64,000 nt of DNA from Acidovorax sp. GTDB taxonomy: Bacteria > Pseudomonadota > Gammaproteobacteria > Burkholderiales > Burkholderiaceae_C. Each line of letters opens with the position of its first letter. The first letter of the stretch is position 1. Position numbers and translations under genes: made by a program. Shown in pieces: positions 13,803 to 62,239 of the stretch. The notes under the pieces were generated by a model. The model was not told the origin of the DNA and did no database searches. It saw only the letters and a program-made list of their open reading frames with translations. The stretch spans positions 62,001 to 126,000 of the forward strand of contig JAITLO010000027.1 of NCBI GenBank assembly GCA_031277855.1, read 5' to 3'.

Positions 13803-14396
13803 ATGATGGCAACTGCAAAGAAGACCACTGCCAAAAAGGCGGTGACCACCACAACCGAAACCACCCCCAAAGCCGCAGCAAAGACAGCTGTGAAAAAGGC
13901 TGCAGCACCCAAGGCAGCTGCAAAGCCTGTAGCCGCTAAGAAGGCTGCAGCGCCCAAGGCAGCCGCAAAGCCTGTAGCCGCCAAGAAGGCCGCAGCTCCC
14001 AAGGCAGCCGCAAAGCCCGCAGCCAAGAAGGCCGCAGCGCCCAAGGCAGCCGCAAAGCCCGCAGCCAAGAAGGCCGCAGCTCCCAAGGCAGCCGCAAAGC
14101 CTGTAGCCGCCAAGAAGGCCGCAGCGCCCAAGGCAGCCGCCAAGCCCGCAGCCAAGAAGGCCGCAGCTCCCAAGGCAGCCGCCAAGCCCGCAGCCAAGAA
14201 GGCCGCAGCTCCCAAGGCAGCCGCAAAGCCTGTAGCCAAGAAGGCCGCAGCGCCCAAGGCAGCCGCAAAGCCCGCAGCCAAAAAGGCAGCTACCAAAAAG
14301 GTGGCAGCTCCTGCCGCAGAAGCTGCTGCACCCGTGGCCCAGACCGTGCTGGCTCCCCAAGCTGCATGGCCTTTCCCCACTGGCGGCAAGCCCTGA
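13803..14396 (+). CDS. Histone H1-like Lys/Ala-rich DNA-binding protein (HctB type)
   Basis: This ~197-residue protein is made almost wholly of Lys, Ala and Pro. After a short threonine-rich start, about nine copies of a 14-15 residue unit (KKAAAPKAAAKPVA or ...PAAK) run to residue ~175. The end is acidic and alanine-rich, then WPFPTGGKP. This matches bacterial histone H1/HctB-like proteins thought to coat or compact the chromosome. The start is ATG 13803 (a second ATG follows at once), after an ACGGAG ribosome site. The repeat number is expected to vary between strains. Confidence 0.85.
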   Translation: MMATAKKTTAKKAVTTTTETTPKAAAKTAVKKAAAPKAAAKPVAAKKAAAPKAAAKPVAAKKAAAPKAAAKPAAKKAAAPKAAAKPAAKKAAAPKAAAKPVAAKKAAAPKAAAKPAAKKAAAPKAAAKPAAKKAAAPKAAAKPVAKKAAAPKAAAKPAAKKAATKKVAAPAAEAAAPVAQTVLAPQAAWPFPTGGKP

Positions 14397-40585: not shown

Positions 40586-41770
40586 ATGGCGAACAGCGAC
40601 TTTCTCTTCACCTCGGAATCGGTTTCGGAAGGCCACCCCGACAAGGTGGCGGACCAGATCTCTGACGCGATTCTGGACGCTATTTTCACCCAAGACCCGC
40701 ATTCCCGCGTGGCTGCCGAAACACTGACCAACACCGGTCTGGTGGTATTGGCTGGTGAAATCACCACCGGCGCCAACGTGGACTACATCCAAGTGGCCCG
40801 CGACACCATCAAGCGCATAGGCTACGACAACACCGACTACGGCATTGACTACAAGGGCTGCGCCGTGCTGGTGGCCTATGACAAGCAAAGCCAGGACATC
40901 GCCCAAGGCGTGGACAAGGCCAGCGACGACGAGCTGAACACCGGCGCCGGCGACCAAGGCCTGATGTTTGGCTATGCCTGCGATGAAACGCCCGAGCTGA
41001 TGCCCGCGCCGATTTACTACGCCCACCGCCTGGTGGAGCGCCAGGCCCAGCTGCGCAAGGATGGCCGCCTGCCTTTCCTGCGCCCCGACGCCAAGAGCCA
41101 GGTGACCATGCGCTATGTGGACGGCAAGCCCCACAGCATCGACACCGTGGTGCTGTCCACCCAGCACAGCCCCGACCAGTCGGAAACCGCCACCAAGATG
41201 AAGGCCTCGTTCACCGAAGCCATCATCGAAGAAATCATCAAGCCCGTGCTGCCCAAAGAGTGGCTGCAGGACACCAAGTATTTGATCAACCCCACCGGCC
41301 GCTTTGTGGTCGGCGGCCCCCAGGGCGACTGCGGCCTGACCGGTCGCAAGATCATTGTGGACACCTACGGCGGCGCCTGCCCCCACGGCGGCGGTGCTTT
41401 CTCCGGCAAGGACCCAACGAAGGTGGACCGCTCTGCCGCCTACGCCGCCCGCTACGTGGCCAAGAACGTGGTGGCAGCCGGCCTGGCACGCCAGTGCCAG
41501 GTGCAGGTGGCCTACGCCATTGGCGTGGCCCGCCCGATGAACATCACGGTCTACACCGAAGGCACGGGCGTGATACCCGATGCCGAAATCGCCAAGCTGG
41601 TGGCCGCGCACTTTGACCTGCGCCCCAAGGGCATCATCCAGATGCTGGACCTGCTGCGCCCCATCTACGCCAAGACCGCCGCCTACGGCCACTTCGGCCG
41701 CGAAGAACCCGAGTTCACTTGGGAGCGTACGGATAAAGCAGCAGTGCTACGCGCTGCTGCCGGGCTGTAA
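40586..41770 (+). CDS. metK: S-adenosylmethionine synthetase
   Basis: This 394-residue cytoplasmic enzyme makes SAM from methionine and ATP. Visible are [20 protein letters not shown], the [12 protein letters not shown] loop, [20 protein letters not shown] and [19 protein letters not shown]. The start [11 protein letters not shown] is canonical. The C-terminus [12 protein letters not shown] is the first unit of a tandem array in which the same tail is encoded three more times downstream; two of those copies carry an extra terminal Lys, suggesting the present end was acquired secondarily. Confidence 0.97.
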
Positions 41771-42138
41771 GCCCGCTGCGCGAAAGCGCAGTTTCCGTAC
41801 GCGGGCGAAGTTCATATCGCTTGCGATGTGAACGTAGACCAAAAGAACCGATAAGGCTGCAGCACTGCGTGCTGCAGCTGGTCTGAAGTAATTCACTTCA
41901 GACACCCTGCGCCAGCAGGGTATCGGTGAGCGGGCGAAGTTCATATCACGCAGTGATGTGAACGCAGACCAAAAGACGGATAAAGCAGCAGTGCTACGCG
42001 CTGCTGCCTGGCTGTAAGCCCGCTGCGCGAAAGCGCAGTTTCCGTACGCGGGCGAAGTTCATATCGCTTGCGATGTGAACGTAGACCAAAAGAAGCGATA
42101 AGGCAGCTGCGCTGCGCGCAGCTGCCGGCCTGAAGTAA
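41732..42138 (+). repeat. Tandem array of metK 3'-end units
   Basis: Units begin with GAT AAR at 41732, 41850, 41979 and 42097 (periods 118, 129, 118 bp). Each starts with codons for DKAA(A/V)LRAAA(G/W)L, with or without K, plus a stop (ending 41770, 41891, 42017, 42138). Units 1 and 3 are nearly identical; units 2 and 4 use different synonymous codons. Each first segment folds as a 10-bp stem with a 3-nt loop. Units 1-3 end in GCGGGCGAAGTTCATATC, a stem-loop, GATGTGAACG and AGACCAAAAGA. Unit 4 is followed by the terminator, so it may be the original gene end. Confidence 0.9.
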
Positions 42139-42158
42139 TTCTTCAGCCCCCTACCCAA

Positions 42159-42190
42159 AGCCACCTGGCCTCCAGCCCGGTGGCTTTTTT
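42159..42190 (+). terminator. Native metK terminator
   Basis: Stem AGCCACC / GGTGGCT followed by T6, 20 bp after the last metK-tail copy. Confidence 0.88.
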
Positions 42191-42259
42191 CATGCCTGCG
42201 TCAAAGCGGCAGCTAGCTGACCTCATACTGACGACACGGCCTCACAAGCCGTCAAAACA

Positions 42260-42273
42260 AAGGGTTAACCCTT
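42260..42273. promoter_or_regulatory. Palindrome AAGGGTTAACCCTT upstream of cstA
   Basis: A perfect 14-bp palindrome about 105 bp before the cstA ATG; candidate operator. Confidence 0.4.
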
Positions 42274-42330
42274 GGAAAAACAACACGCCATCGCTCTCGG
42301 CACTCAGGCACTTCCCTACACTGCATTCGC

Positions 42331-42344
42331 GGGTGCAAGCACCC
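42331..42344. promoter_or_regulatory. Second palindrome upstream of cstA
   Basis: GGGTGCAAGCACCC, 6-bp arms around AA, about 35 bp before the cstA start; operator or leader hairpin. Confidence 0.35.
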
Positions 42345-42378
42345 CCTTACCCATTCATTTCATATCAAAGGGTTCATC

Positions 42379-44457
42379 ATGCAGCAGCAAGGGAAAAGCT
42401 GGCTGAACCACGTTGGCTGGATTCTTCTCGCCATCGTGGGCGCCGGTTGCCTGGGTGTCGTCGCATTGCGACGCGGGGAAGCCATCAATGCCGTCTGGTT
42501 GGTTGCGGCGGCGGTCAGTCTTTATCTGGTGGCCTATCGCTACTACAGCTTGTTTATCGCCAACAAGGTGATGGGACTGGATCCACGCCGTGCCACGCCG
42601 GCCGTTTTGAACAACGACGGCCTGGACTATGTTCCCACCAACAAGCACATTCTGTTCGGCCACCACTTTGCCGCCATTGCCGGAGCCGGTCCGCTGGTGG
42701 GCCCGGTGCTGGCGGCGCAAATGGGCTATCTGCCCGGCACACTGTGGCTGATTGCTGGCGTGGTGCTGGCCGGCGCGGTGCAGGACTTCATGGTGCTGTT
42801 CATCTCCACCCGCCGCAACGGCCGCTCCCTGGGCGAGCTGGTGCGCGAGGAAATGGGCCAGGTGCCCGGCACCATTGCCCTGTTCGGCACCTATATGATC
42901 ATGATCATCATCCTGGCAGTGCTGGCCCTGATCGTGGTGAAGGCGCTGGCCGAAAGCCCCTGGGGCATGTTCACGGTGATGGCCACCATCCCCATTGCCC
43001 TGTTCATGGGCGTGTACATGCGCTATATCCGCCCGGGCCGCATCGGTGAAATCTCCGTCATCGGCCTGGTGCTGCTGATGCTGTCCATCTGGGCCGGCGG
43101 CAAGGTGGCGGCCGCCCCAGCCTGGGGCCCGGCCTTCACCTTCACCGGCGTGCAAATCACCTGGATGCTGATCGGCTACGGCGCCGTGGCCTCCATGCTG
43201 CCCGTGTGGCTGCTGCTGGCCCCGCGTGACTACCTGTCCACCTTCCTGAAGATCGGCACCATCATCGGTCTGGCTCTGGGCATTTTGTTTGTCGCGCCCC
43301 AATTCAAGATGCCGGCGCTGACCCAGTTTGTCGACGGCACAGGCCCGGTGTGGAAGGGCAGCATGTTCCCCTTCCTGTTCATCACCATTGCCTGCGGCGC
43401 GGTCTCGGGCTTTCACGCACTGATCTCTTCCGGCACCACGCCCAAGCTGCTGGACAACGAGGTCAACGCCCGCTACATAGGCTACGGCGGCATGCTGATG
43501 GAGTCTTTTGTGGCCATCATGGCCATGGTCGCGGCCTGTGTGATCGAGCCCGGCGTTTACTTCGCAATGAACAGCCCAGCCGCTTTGGTGGGCAGCGATG
43601 CGCAAAGCGTGGCCACCGCCGTCAGCAGCTGGGGCTTTCACATCACGGCCGACCAACTGAACCAGGTCGCCAAGGACGTGGGAGAGAACACCATCCTGGC
43701 CCGCGCAGGCGGCGCGCCTACGCTGGCCGTGGGCATTGCCTTCATCCTGCACCAGGTGCTGCCGGGTGAGAACACCATGGCCTTCTGGTACCACTTTGCA
43801 ATTTTGTTTGAAGCGCTGTTCATCCTCACGGCCGTGGACGCAGGCACCCGCGCCGGCCGCTTCATGCTGCAGGATCTGCTGGGCAACTTTGTGCCGGCGC
43901 TCAAGAAGACCGACTCCTGGGTGGCCAACGCCGTAGGCACCGGCGGCTGCGTGGCCATGTGGGGCTGGCTGCTTTACCAGGGCGTGGTCGACCCCCTGGG
44001 TGGCGTGAACACGCTGTGGCCGCTGTTCGGCATCTCCAACCAGATGCTGGCAGCCATTGCGCTGATGCTGGGCACCGTGGTGCTGATCAAGATGAAACGA
44101 GCCCGCTACGCCTGGGTCACGGCGCTGCCGGCCACCTGGTTGCTGCTGTGCACCACGGCCGCAGGCCTGATCAAGCTGCTGGATCCCAACCCGGCCGTGG
44201 GCTTTACCAGCCTGGGCAAGAAATACAGCGACGCCATCGCCTCCGGCCAAATCCTGGCCCCCGCCAAGAGCATGGAGCAGATGAAGGCCATTGCCTTCAA
44301 TGCCTACACCAATGCCACGCTGACGGCCATCTTCTTGCTGGTGGTCTTTAGCGTGCTGTGCTATGCCATCAAGGTGGGCCGCCAAGCCCATAGACAGACC
44401 GAGCGCAGCGACCGCGAAACCCCGTTCCAGCCCATGCCTTCGGGCTCGGGCGTCTAA
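42379..44457 (+). CDS. cstA: CstA-family carbon starvation / pyruvate transporter
   Basis: This 692-residue protein has well over a dozen membrane segments, beginning with HVGWILLAIVGAGCLGVVAL, and the family motifs FAAIAGAGPLVGPVLAAQMG and ISSGTTPKLL. CstA/BtsT proteins import pyruvate or peptides when carbon is scarce. The ATG at 42379 follows AAAGGG. It is followed after 20 bp by a YjiX-like gene, the usual pair. No BtsSR-type sensor is adjacent; the two upstream palindromes may mediate control. Confidence 0.95.
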   Translation: MQQQGKSWLNHVGWILLAIVGAGCLGVVALRRGEAINAVWLVAAAVSLYLVAYRYYSLFIANKVMGLDPRRATPAVLNNDGLDYVPTNKHILFGHHFAAIAGAGPLVGPVLAAQMGYLPGTLWLIAGVVLAGAVQDFMVLFISTRRNGRSLGELVREEMGQVPGTIALFGTYMIMIIILAVLALIVVKALAESPWGMFTVMATIPIALFMGVYMRYIRPGRIGEISVIGLVLLMLSIWAGGKVAAAPAWGPAFTFTGVQITWMLIGYGAVASMLPVWLLLAPRDYLSTFLKIGTIIGLALGILFVAPQFKMPALTQFVDGTGPVWKGSMFPFLFITIACGAVSGFHALISSGTTPKLLDNEVNARYIGYGGMLMESFVAIMAMVAACVIEPGVYFAMNSPAALVGSDAQSVATAVSSWGFHITADQLNQVAKDVGENTILARAGGAPTLAVGIAFILHQVLPGENTMAFWYHFAILFEALFILTAVDAGTRAGRFMLQDLLGNFVPALKKTDSWVANAVGTGGCVAMWGWLLYQGVVDPLGGVNTLWPLFGISNQMLAAIALMLGTVVLIKMKRARYAWVTALPATWLLLCTTAAGLIKLLDPNPAVGFTSLGKKYSDAIASGQILAPAKSMEQMKAIAFNAYTNATLTAIFLLVVFSVLCYAIKVGRQAHRQTERSDRETPFQPMPSGSGV

Positions 44458-61522: not shown

Positions 61523-62239
61523 ATGAAGGCATTCGAGCGTTGGCTGGGTCTGGCACTGCTGGCCTTGGTGGGCTTGCAGCTGTTTTTTGTGCTGCGCATT
61601 GCGCTGATGGTGGTGGTGGCGCCGGAGTCCACCAGCTTTCAACGCTCCGAAATGTGGCAGCAATGGAAAAACGGTGCCGAGCGCCCCTGGCAACAGCAAT
61701 GGGTGGATTACGGCCAGATTTCCGACCACCTCAAGCGTGCCGTGCTGACCTCGGAAGACGACCAGTTTGTGGAGCACGGCGGCGTGCGCTGGGATGCCAT
61801 AGAGAGGGCCATGGAGCGCAACGCCAAGGAAGAGTTGCGCGCGGCCCGCAAGCAGTCCACGCGCCCGGCCAGGGTGTTTGGCGGCTCCACCATCACCCAG
61901 CAACTGGCCAAGAATCTGCTGCTCTCGGGCGAACGCAATATGCTGCGCAAAGGCCAGGAGCTGGTGCTGTCCCAACTGCTGGAGCTGCTGCTTTCCAAGC
62001 GCCGCATTCTGGAGATTTACCTCAACAATGTGGAATGGGGCAACGGCATTTTTGGCGCCGAGGCCGCCGCCCAGCATTACTTTGGCAAAAGCGCTGCCCG
62101 CCTCAGCCCGGCCGAAGCCGCACGCCTGGCGGTGATGCTGCCCAATCCACGCCACTTTGAAGCCAATCCCCGCTCTGCCTATCTCAACCAGCGCAGCAGC
62201 GCCATCCAACGTAGGATGGGGAACACGCCGCTTCCTTAA
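61523..62239 (+). CDS. mtgA: Monofunctional biosynthetic peptidoglycan glycosyltransferase
   Basis: This 238-residue inner-membrane enzyme polymerises lipid II. One membrane helix (LALLALVGLQLFFVLRIALMV) is followed by a GT51 domain with SEDDQFVEHGGVRWDAIE, FGGSTITQQLAKNLLLSGER and RILEIYLNNVEWGNGIFGAE. No transpeptidase domain is present. It probably shares a transcript with aroE, as in many beta-proteobacteria. Confidence 0.96.
   Translation: MKAFERWLGLALLALVGLQLFFVLRIALMVVVAPESTSFQRSEMWQQWKNGAERPWQQQWVDYGQISDHLKRAVLTSEDDQFVEHGGVRWDAIERAMERNAKEELRAARKQSTRPARVFGGSTITQQLAKNLLLSGERNMLRKGQELVLSQLLELLLSKRRILEIYLNNVEWGNGIFGAEAAAQHYFGKSAARLSPAEAARLAVMLPNPRHFEANPRSAYLNQRSSAIQRRMGNTPLP

Follow-up and report, generated by a model that had tools for sequence, protein, structure and literature searches.

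The window, a 64,000-nucleotide stretch from Acidovorax sp. (positions 62,001 to 126,000 of contig JAITLO010000027.1) to which all coordinates below refer, contains metK and, after a Glu codon of this gene at 41723-41725, three units arranged head to tail. The order within each unit is metK-tail codons, a stop, a run of hairpins, a hairpin GTTCATATC..GATGTGAAC (the core hairpin) and a final GACC. The boundary of unit 1 was placed based on relatives with an empty site and on the point at which divergence between other metK genes stops. Core hairpins were identified using consensus pairs and R1, a covariance model that was built from 12 sequences and represents the right half of the type A unit. 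The features are as follows.

40586..41770, + strand: metK (methionine adenosyltransferase), reading frame matching TIGR01034 with E 6.7e-176
41726..41840, + strand: unit 1, with gene piece, inner hairpins, arm P1c, core hairpin and end GACC
41726..41733, + strand: 5' strand of stem P1 of unit 1 (CGTACGGA), pairs with 41794-41801
41794..41801, + strand: P1c, the reverse-complement arm of unit 1 (TCCGTACG), based on the fold and on the own-piece pairing test across loci
41810..41833, + strand: core hairpin P5 of unit 1, based on consensus pairs and R1
41841..41970, + strand: unit 2, stop at 41889-41891, based on fold z
41939..41963, + strand: core hairpin P5 of unit 2, R1 match
41971..42087, + strand: unit 3, stop at 42015-42017, based on its 94% repeat of unit 1 and fold z
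42057..42080, + strand: core hairpin P5 of unit 3, R1 match
42088..42138, + strand: displaced metK tail with stop at 42136-42138 and without a core hairpin after it (compare the empty sites below)
42157..42193, + strand: terminator-like hairpin and T run (inverted repeat 42157-42169/42175-42187)

Unit 1 now holds the last 14 metK codons and the stop, and unit 2 is an older, displaced unit. The initial annotation had described a tandem array of four metK tails in which units 1 and 3 are nearly identical and which ends in a terminator. The sequence, the repeats and the checked coordinates of the stops (41768-41770, 41889-41891, 42015-42017, and 42136-42138) agree that this array is real; a repeat search paired 41729-41894 with 41976-42141 at 94% over 166 nt, and the inverted repeat and T run at 42157-42193 lie downstream of the array. 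The four tails with their stops therefore stand, whereas the first unit does not start at 41732, as had been proposed, but directly after the Glu codon. Similarly, only three of the four proposed units are complete; the fourth is a displaced tail, because the core hairpin is missing and the terminator directly follows. The same repeat search found a 39-nt core family with copies starting at 41780, 41909, and 42027, while the array was absent from the output of Tandem Repeats Finder at a minimum score of 40. In a search of its own genome, the core was present in three copies, all at the metK array and none elsewhere. An Rfam search of 41400-42400 gave three weak matches, all below the gathering score, and 41729-42200 had no match in plasmid and phage collections.

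Compared to dinucleotide shuffles, the three units fold 5 to 8 standard deviations better, with z values for units 1, 2, and 3 of −6.9, −8.0, and −5.1 as RNA and −7.5, −7.3, and −4.6 as DNA, and none of 200 shuffles was as good. In control stretches of the window, z was −0.5 to −1.1 for four folded as RNA and −0.4 and −1.4 for two folded as DNA. A strong, though less stable, fold was likewise obtained for the reverse strand of unit 1 (z −5.9 and −5.8). Units 1 and 2 each form a single domain that is closed by stem P1, made of the first bases and the arm P1c, and followed by core hairpin P5; the inner hairpins consist of the coding palindrome and the stop region. In unit 3, the first P1 bases are gone, its first codon is mismatched to its own arm, and only the centroid retains the domains of unit 1, the best RNA fold having a rearranged structure. 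Among the units fetched from other genomes, G047.1, G004.1, G011.1, the decayed G041.1 and G022.1, and G040.2-3 had other best folds.

Both sides had changed in at least one sequence at 11 of 34 consensus pairs of type A units (n=11), and at 5 of 51 consensus pairs of type B units (n=6). At pair 5 of the hairpin, T.G was present in 73 of 81 scored cores out of 87 found with the model and A.C in none, and at the other seven pairs of the model-found cores, G.T outnumbered A.C by 20 to 2. The 73/81 count leaves out loci found by pattern, in which the pattern itself fixes the wobble and which a set of 155 cores had included. The preference for T.G over A.C supports that the top strand folds, with the caveat that the model search, too, favors the wobble. 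Strong folds of the mRNA strand, changes on both sides of consensus pairs, a preference for G.T over A.C on the mRNA strand and the existence of tandem arrays are also what would be expected of a structured RNA in the 3' UTR that takes in the final codons of the gene, was multiplied by tandem duplication and became patchy by loss. The comparisons of relatives and of other genes described below bear on this explanation.

Comparison of metK 3' ends across related genomes had been proposed as a check of mobility. metK is present in 52 of 53 genomes of the genus, and we judged the 52 3' ends by eye over ~420 nt each. Empty sites were frequent: 11 ends carry units (G000, G035, G046, G047, G014, G004, G037, G016, G023, G040, and G011), 5 carry decayed remnants (G041, G022, G009, G013, and G028), and 36 carry none. 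No core was seen by eye at the metK end of the empty relatives, and a 63-nt query consisting of the type A core and tail had matches in 7 of the 53 genomes. The idea that each unit supplies its own tail and displaces the old one is best illustrated by G023 and G040, in which type B units lie between metK and a tail plus terminator resembling those of empty G021. Over 36 positions, the old tail matches G021 at 33 (G023) and 34 (G040) positions and the new tail at 29. Compared to empty G015, the tails are inseparable (G023, new 32 and old 31; G040, 32 and 32). The old tail of G000 is closer to empty G008 (31 versus 26), while the order is reversed in G035, in which the new tail matches at 31/36 and the old, decayed tail at 22/36 positions. 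G035 encodes a MetK protein identical to that of the window, and its array consists of two units followed by a last tail that has decayed; compared to G035, the window has one extra unit on the metK side.

At the family level, R1 had matches in 81 of 399 genomes and 49 of 141 genera (E ≤ 0.01, strict filters), with 1 to 5 matches per positive genome. At one locus (L102, G201:C7), five units lie behind metK, 113 bp apart, and four of them are equal in model score; this array probably represents a recent tandem expansion. In a sample of 300 genomes of the order, for which the number outside the family is not given, R1 had four matches (E ≤ 0.001), namely, three family members and G617. G617 is a metagenome-assembled genome of another family (89% complete, 6% contaminated), and its metK unit (L228, G617:C46) may stem from contamination or from a transfer between families. 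A search of the genome collection for the exact core pattern gave 89 stretches, of which 80 are given as loci, and all but one of these are labeled as members of the Burkholderiales or unspecified Proteobacteria. The pattern was absent from viral contigs. We regard the exact match in a Myxococcales metagenome-assembled genome (L149) as a chance match, as no unit was visible there by eye.

For further analyses, we used a set of 163 distinct cores. The set excludes partial-model matches (rows 22-42, 14-50, and 21-43), echoes on the opposite strand and two repeats at L102, includes four added pattern hits (L202, L172, L208, and L171), and was freed of entries identical over 120 nt. Based on protein motifs, 85 cores lie at metK, 38 at acs, 19 at tRNA-Ser, 6 at proB, and 15 at other sites, some of the latter being metK or acs with little context. 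Target names are each based on a single representative: metK (the window), acetate-CoA ligase (L115), proB (L129), folE2 (L172), and lepA (L171). Additional targets are a reductase with Fer2, FAD, and NAD domains that scores under the NCBIfam cutoffs (L202), a racemase-like gene (L105), a site adjoining a PQQ dehydrogenase gene (L132), and a locus that, from its reading frames, we take to be infC/rpmI (L127). The search for the core at other gene ends, likewise proposed in the initial annotation, thus recovered it without a metK tail at acs, proB, tRNA-Ser, folE2, and other sites.

To the right of the core, the flank is similar to the gene piece of the same unit in 52 of 84 metK cores (control, 5/840), 35 of 38 acs cores (6/380), and 8 of 19 tRNA-Ser cores (2/190). 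No displaced copy was recognized in the remaining 32 of the 84 metK cores or at proB (0/6; control, 0/60). By eye, a gene copy is also present at folE2, at L202 (short), at the racemase-like gene, and at a gene ending KPRNL..TVE, while only core hairpins and no gene copy were seen at lepA, infC/rpmI, and L132. L202 represents the simplest unit, consisting of a tail, the reverse complement of this tail and the core. In the tRNA-Ser class, an intact gene lies to the right of the core and a 5' half to the left, without arm pairing. At the racemase-like gene (L105 and L174), the unit occupies the 5' end in opposite-strand orientation, and the core near lepA (L171) is also on the opposite strand. 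We note that, at L105 and L174, the racemase-like open frame starts within the antisense of the core hairpin (ATGAG) and may thus receive its start codon from the unit. Most units end with a motif typical of the class, i.e., GACC in 69 of 85 metK, CACC in 29 of 38 acs, AGGC in 16 of 19 tRNA-Ser, and AGCC in 4 of 6 proB units; the pattern used to define these ends requires [GC]C followed by A, and the A that follows is thus built in. At metK, 32 of 85 right junctions are CC|ACA and 53 are of other kinds, and the arms of the two kinds are mostly different. Unit lengths are 113-137 nt at metK (with ends up to 3 nt off) and 91-137 nt at acs.

These results speak against a structured 3'-UTR RNA, which we consider improbable: the same core lies at unrelated genes, it has opposite-strand orientation near lepA and at the 5' end of the racemase-like gene, it lies inside tRNA-Ser sequence, none was seen in empty relatives, and displaced copies decay, as in G035. 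They also speak against stepwise tandem duplication, accompanied by gene conversion, of the 3' end of metK. The 94% identity of units 1 and 3 and the near-identical scores of the L102 copies are in agreement with such duplication, and some array growth, at units 1 and 3 and at L102, is probably ordinary tandem duplication. However, no core was seen at empty relatives, the core occurs at other genes without a metK tail, and duplication accounts for the growth of an array and not for its origin; as a full explanation, it is therefore very improbable.

For 158 of the 163 cores, we compared the ten expected arm bases with the unit's own left piece, with pieces of other units of the same class and with pieces of other classes. 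At metK, at least 9 of the 10 bases matched the own piece in 50/85 cases, compared to 79/850 for other metK units and 39/850 for other classes. The corresponding fractions were 22/38, 65/380, and 10/380 for acs; 5/6, 6/30, and 0/60 for proB; 4/10, 2/90, and 4/100 for the class of other sites; and 1/19, 10/190, and 12/190 for tRNA-Ser. Because the arm pairs far more often with its own gene piece, piece and arm must travel together. In the sequences compared, arm and gene piece change in concert, and both filled and empty sites are represented. The possibility that P1c serves as a guide to the displaced copy was rejected, as own matches (metK, 4/85; acs, 2/38) did not stand out from the controls (32/850 and 48/380, respectively).

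To compare units with their hosts, we restricted the analysis to first units, taking the 330 nt of metK that precede the unit and at most 190 nt of the unit, and dropped L126, in which the metK stretch is out of register, and L066, a duplicate of G047.1. Among 65 first units (2080 pairs), unit and host identity were hardly correlated (Spearman 0.07), a value that partly reflects saturation because most unit pairs are ~70% identical. Four pairs stood out as having much more similar units than hosts (unit/metK identity): L157/L185 (0.949/0.752), L204/L185 (0.941/0.730), L204/L157 (0.958/0.867), and L199/L067 (0.983/0.894). L204 and L185 differ at 34 of 120 positions between −150 and −31 and at 6 positions among the final 30, the one nearest the unit being −7, while there are only 2 differences in the first 45 unit bases; divergence thus stops no more than 7 bases from the predicted insertion point. 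L199/L067 differ at 12/120 positions, 4 of the last 30 (the final one at −7), and 1/45 unit bases. L157/L185 differ at 33/120 positions, then at 2 of the last 30 and at 1/45 unit bases; with only 2 differences near the site, this boundary is merely bracketed to about 28 bases. For 29 acs units (406 pairs), unit and host identity correlated better (Spearman 0.38), and this comparison gave no transfer case as clear as those at metK. Based on this correlation, inheritance of acs units may be largely vertical. The greatest excesses of unit over host identity at acs all include L203. Its acs stretch is 0.54-0.61 identical to the others among the rows listed, while its unit is ordinary; the acs stretch may represent a paralogue, a misassembly, or a real transfer.

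Sharp unit boundaries could also result from homologous recombination, and we considered whether recombination after DNA uptake, with metK on the left and a tail on the right and no dedicated transposition, might explain the pattern alone. In agreement with this scenario, the stretch to the left of the site is conserved, with L157 and L185 differing at just two of its last 30 positions, tails are alike on the right side, and core flanks and ends vary with the target gene. However, L204 and L185 differ up to −7 and then hardly within the unit, and recombination leaves the presence of the same core at unrelated genes unexplained. We therefore regard recombination alone as unlikely. Less likely still is that the units are scars of a site-specific integrative element that carried the gene piece in its ends and lost its interior each time. 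Site-specific integrative elements commonly restore gene ends, and one target here is a tRNA gene. In 31 metK loci, however, the recognized tails and cores lie within about 500 nt, unit lengths are tight and folding is kept. No long inserts were seen between metK tails in these 31 loci, for which 295 to 7646 nt of downstream sequence were available (less than 700 nt in five) and a second tail was recognized in 15.

Altogether, we favor the interpretation, to which we assign a probability of about 0.7, that the metK-tail units are minimal mobile elements, part of a family that lacks an open reading frame and replaces the ends of genes. Frequent empty sites and cores without a metK tail, each the opposite of an outcome that the initial annotation had named as speaking against mobility, support this idea. 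In the sequences, the sites are sharp, units supply gene ends, piece and element are predicted to fold together, targets comprise several unrelated genes, and metK units have spread across host divergence. Entry of a small unit at the metK 3' end, as first suggested for this array, is thus supported and extends to other genes, with movement itself read from sequence comparison.

A unit would comprise (i) a copy of the part of the target gene that lies between the insertion point and the gene end; (ii) sequence that folds with this copy, including arm P1c, which is complementary to the start of the copy; and (iii) a hairpin that is conserved around TCATATCGC..GCGATGTGA and contains a fixed T.G wobble. 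At its right end, the unit would mostly finish with CC, followed by A-rich target sequence. Insertion would occur at a fixed site near the gene end, such that the unit's own copy replaces this end and the old end moves downstream; as the unit supplies the replacement, the gene would remain whole. Arrays would arise by repeated insertion plus ordinary tandem duplication, with repeated insertion at the same site giving arrays with different tails and unequal exchange giving near-identical neighbors. We infer that movement takes place in trans, with the unit present as a folded single strand. Single-stranded DNA handled by a recombinase is likelier than RNA, because sites on the opposite strand and at tRNA genes are independent of any single mRNA and because the genome of the window and 18 of 34 unit-bearing genomes gave no reverse transcriptase match. 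Genome assemblies can show no excised form of the units.

Screens for Y1 transposases and reverse transcriptases, together with surveys of loci, did not identify a mobilizing enzyme or an autonomous relative of the units. Y1 transposase matches, the type of which was unchecked, were present in 28 of the 34 genomes with units and in 24 of the 26 genomes without them (52/60 overall). With 6 of the 34 unit-bearing genomes lacking a match, a Y1 transposase as the mobilizer is without support; where present, it could act on units. The best R1 score around four Y1 loci, of which two (L135 and L138) are from unit-free genomes, was 10.8 bits. One genome without an R1 match (G067) has 20 Y1 transposase matches, several equal in score, and this set looks like an active IS200-type element. 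Non-autonomous IS200/IS605 derivatives would be recognized by guide sequences that base-pair with short sites of cleavage and by TnpA as the cleaving enzyme. A reverse transcriptase as the mobilizer is likewise without support; matches were present in 16/34 unit-bearing and 8/26 unit-free genomes, the genome of the window having none.

Several known systems share features with the units. In integrons, attC sites act as folded single-stranded substrates and form head-to-tail arrays; the units are likewise arranged in head-to-tail arrays and would act as a folded single strand, while an attC R-box pair (RYYYAAC ... GTTRRRY) was found in 1 of 77 units. MITEs are short, non-autonomous, and patchy; terminal inverted repeats (at least 8/10 bases) were found in 0 of 77 units, which, unlike MITEs, carry a gene piece. 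REP elements are described as short imperfect hairpins associated with the Y1 transposase RAYT (PMC2817692). At the 5' foot of the hairpin in the 163 cores, the REP tags GTAG, GTGG, and CGTC were each found 0 times and GGAG 10 times; in contrast to REP elements, the units have a low copy number (the 1 to 5 matches per positive genome given above), lie at gene ends, and occur also in the six genomes without a Y1 match. Mitochondrial double-hairpin elements of Allomyces and sponges are reported as small and patchy among close species, with mobility hypothesized (PMC2800124). The units are likewise small, hairpin-forming, and patchy, but they carry a piece of the target gene, of which the part of PMC2800124 available to us makes no mention.

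Closest in logic are the mobile ORFs (mORFs) of fungal mitochondria. They give a foreign C terminus to atp6, atp9, cox2, and nad3 in Glomus and to atp6 in Allomyces; the insert brings a diverged replacement gene end while the native end lies downstream, ~1000 bp away for atp6, and mORFs encode an endonuclease (PMC3630166). As with mORFs, a unit would supply a diverged gene end and displace the native one. The units differ in being ~120 bp long, lacking an open reading frame, residing on bacterial chromosomes and having the gene piece folded with the element, and the 113-137-nt metK units have no coding room for a homing endonuclease.

That relatives lie at several other genes suggests that the units are minimal bacterial mobile elements of a kind not yet described. 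In a literature search covering titles and the beginnings of abstracts, with preprints and most subscription papers outside its scope, such units were not described. We give roughly even odds to the more specific proposal that the units form a class of folded elements without an open reading frame that home to exact sites in conserved genes by means of a recoded copy of the gene end and retarget by acquiring a new piece with a matching arm. Retargeting would leave two kinds of right junction at metK with mostly different arms, as found. These considerations suggest that the element is new in kind, although identification of its mobilizing enzyme may reveal kinship with a known family. If this is correct, bacteria harbor a mobile element of ~120 bases that is tolerated inside essential genes because it carries the very sequence that its insertion would destroy. 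Gene-end replacement, familiar from fungal mitochondria in combination with an encoded endonuclease, would then be possible for a purely structural element, raising the question of which enzyme moves the unit, and the odd synonymous codons with which genes like metK and acs end would gain an explanation.

Two other repeats were observed in the window. At 2498-2683, two 95-bp tandem copies (91% identical) with a terminator-like hairpin and T run possibly represent another duplicated gene end. At 13866-14287, a long 42/129-bp tandem repeat would encode an Ala-Lys-Pro-rich stretch, presumably of the kind typical of histone-H1-like proteins.
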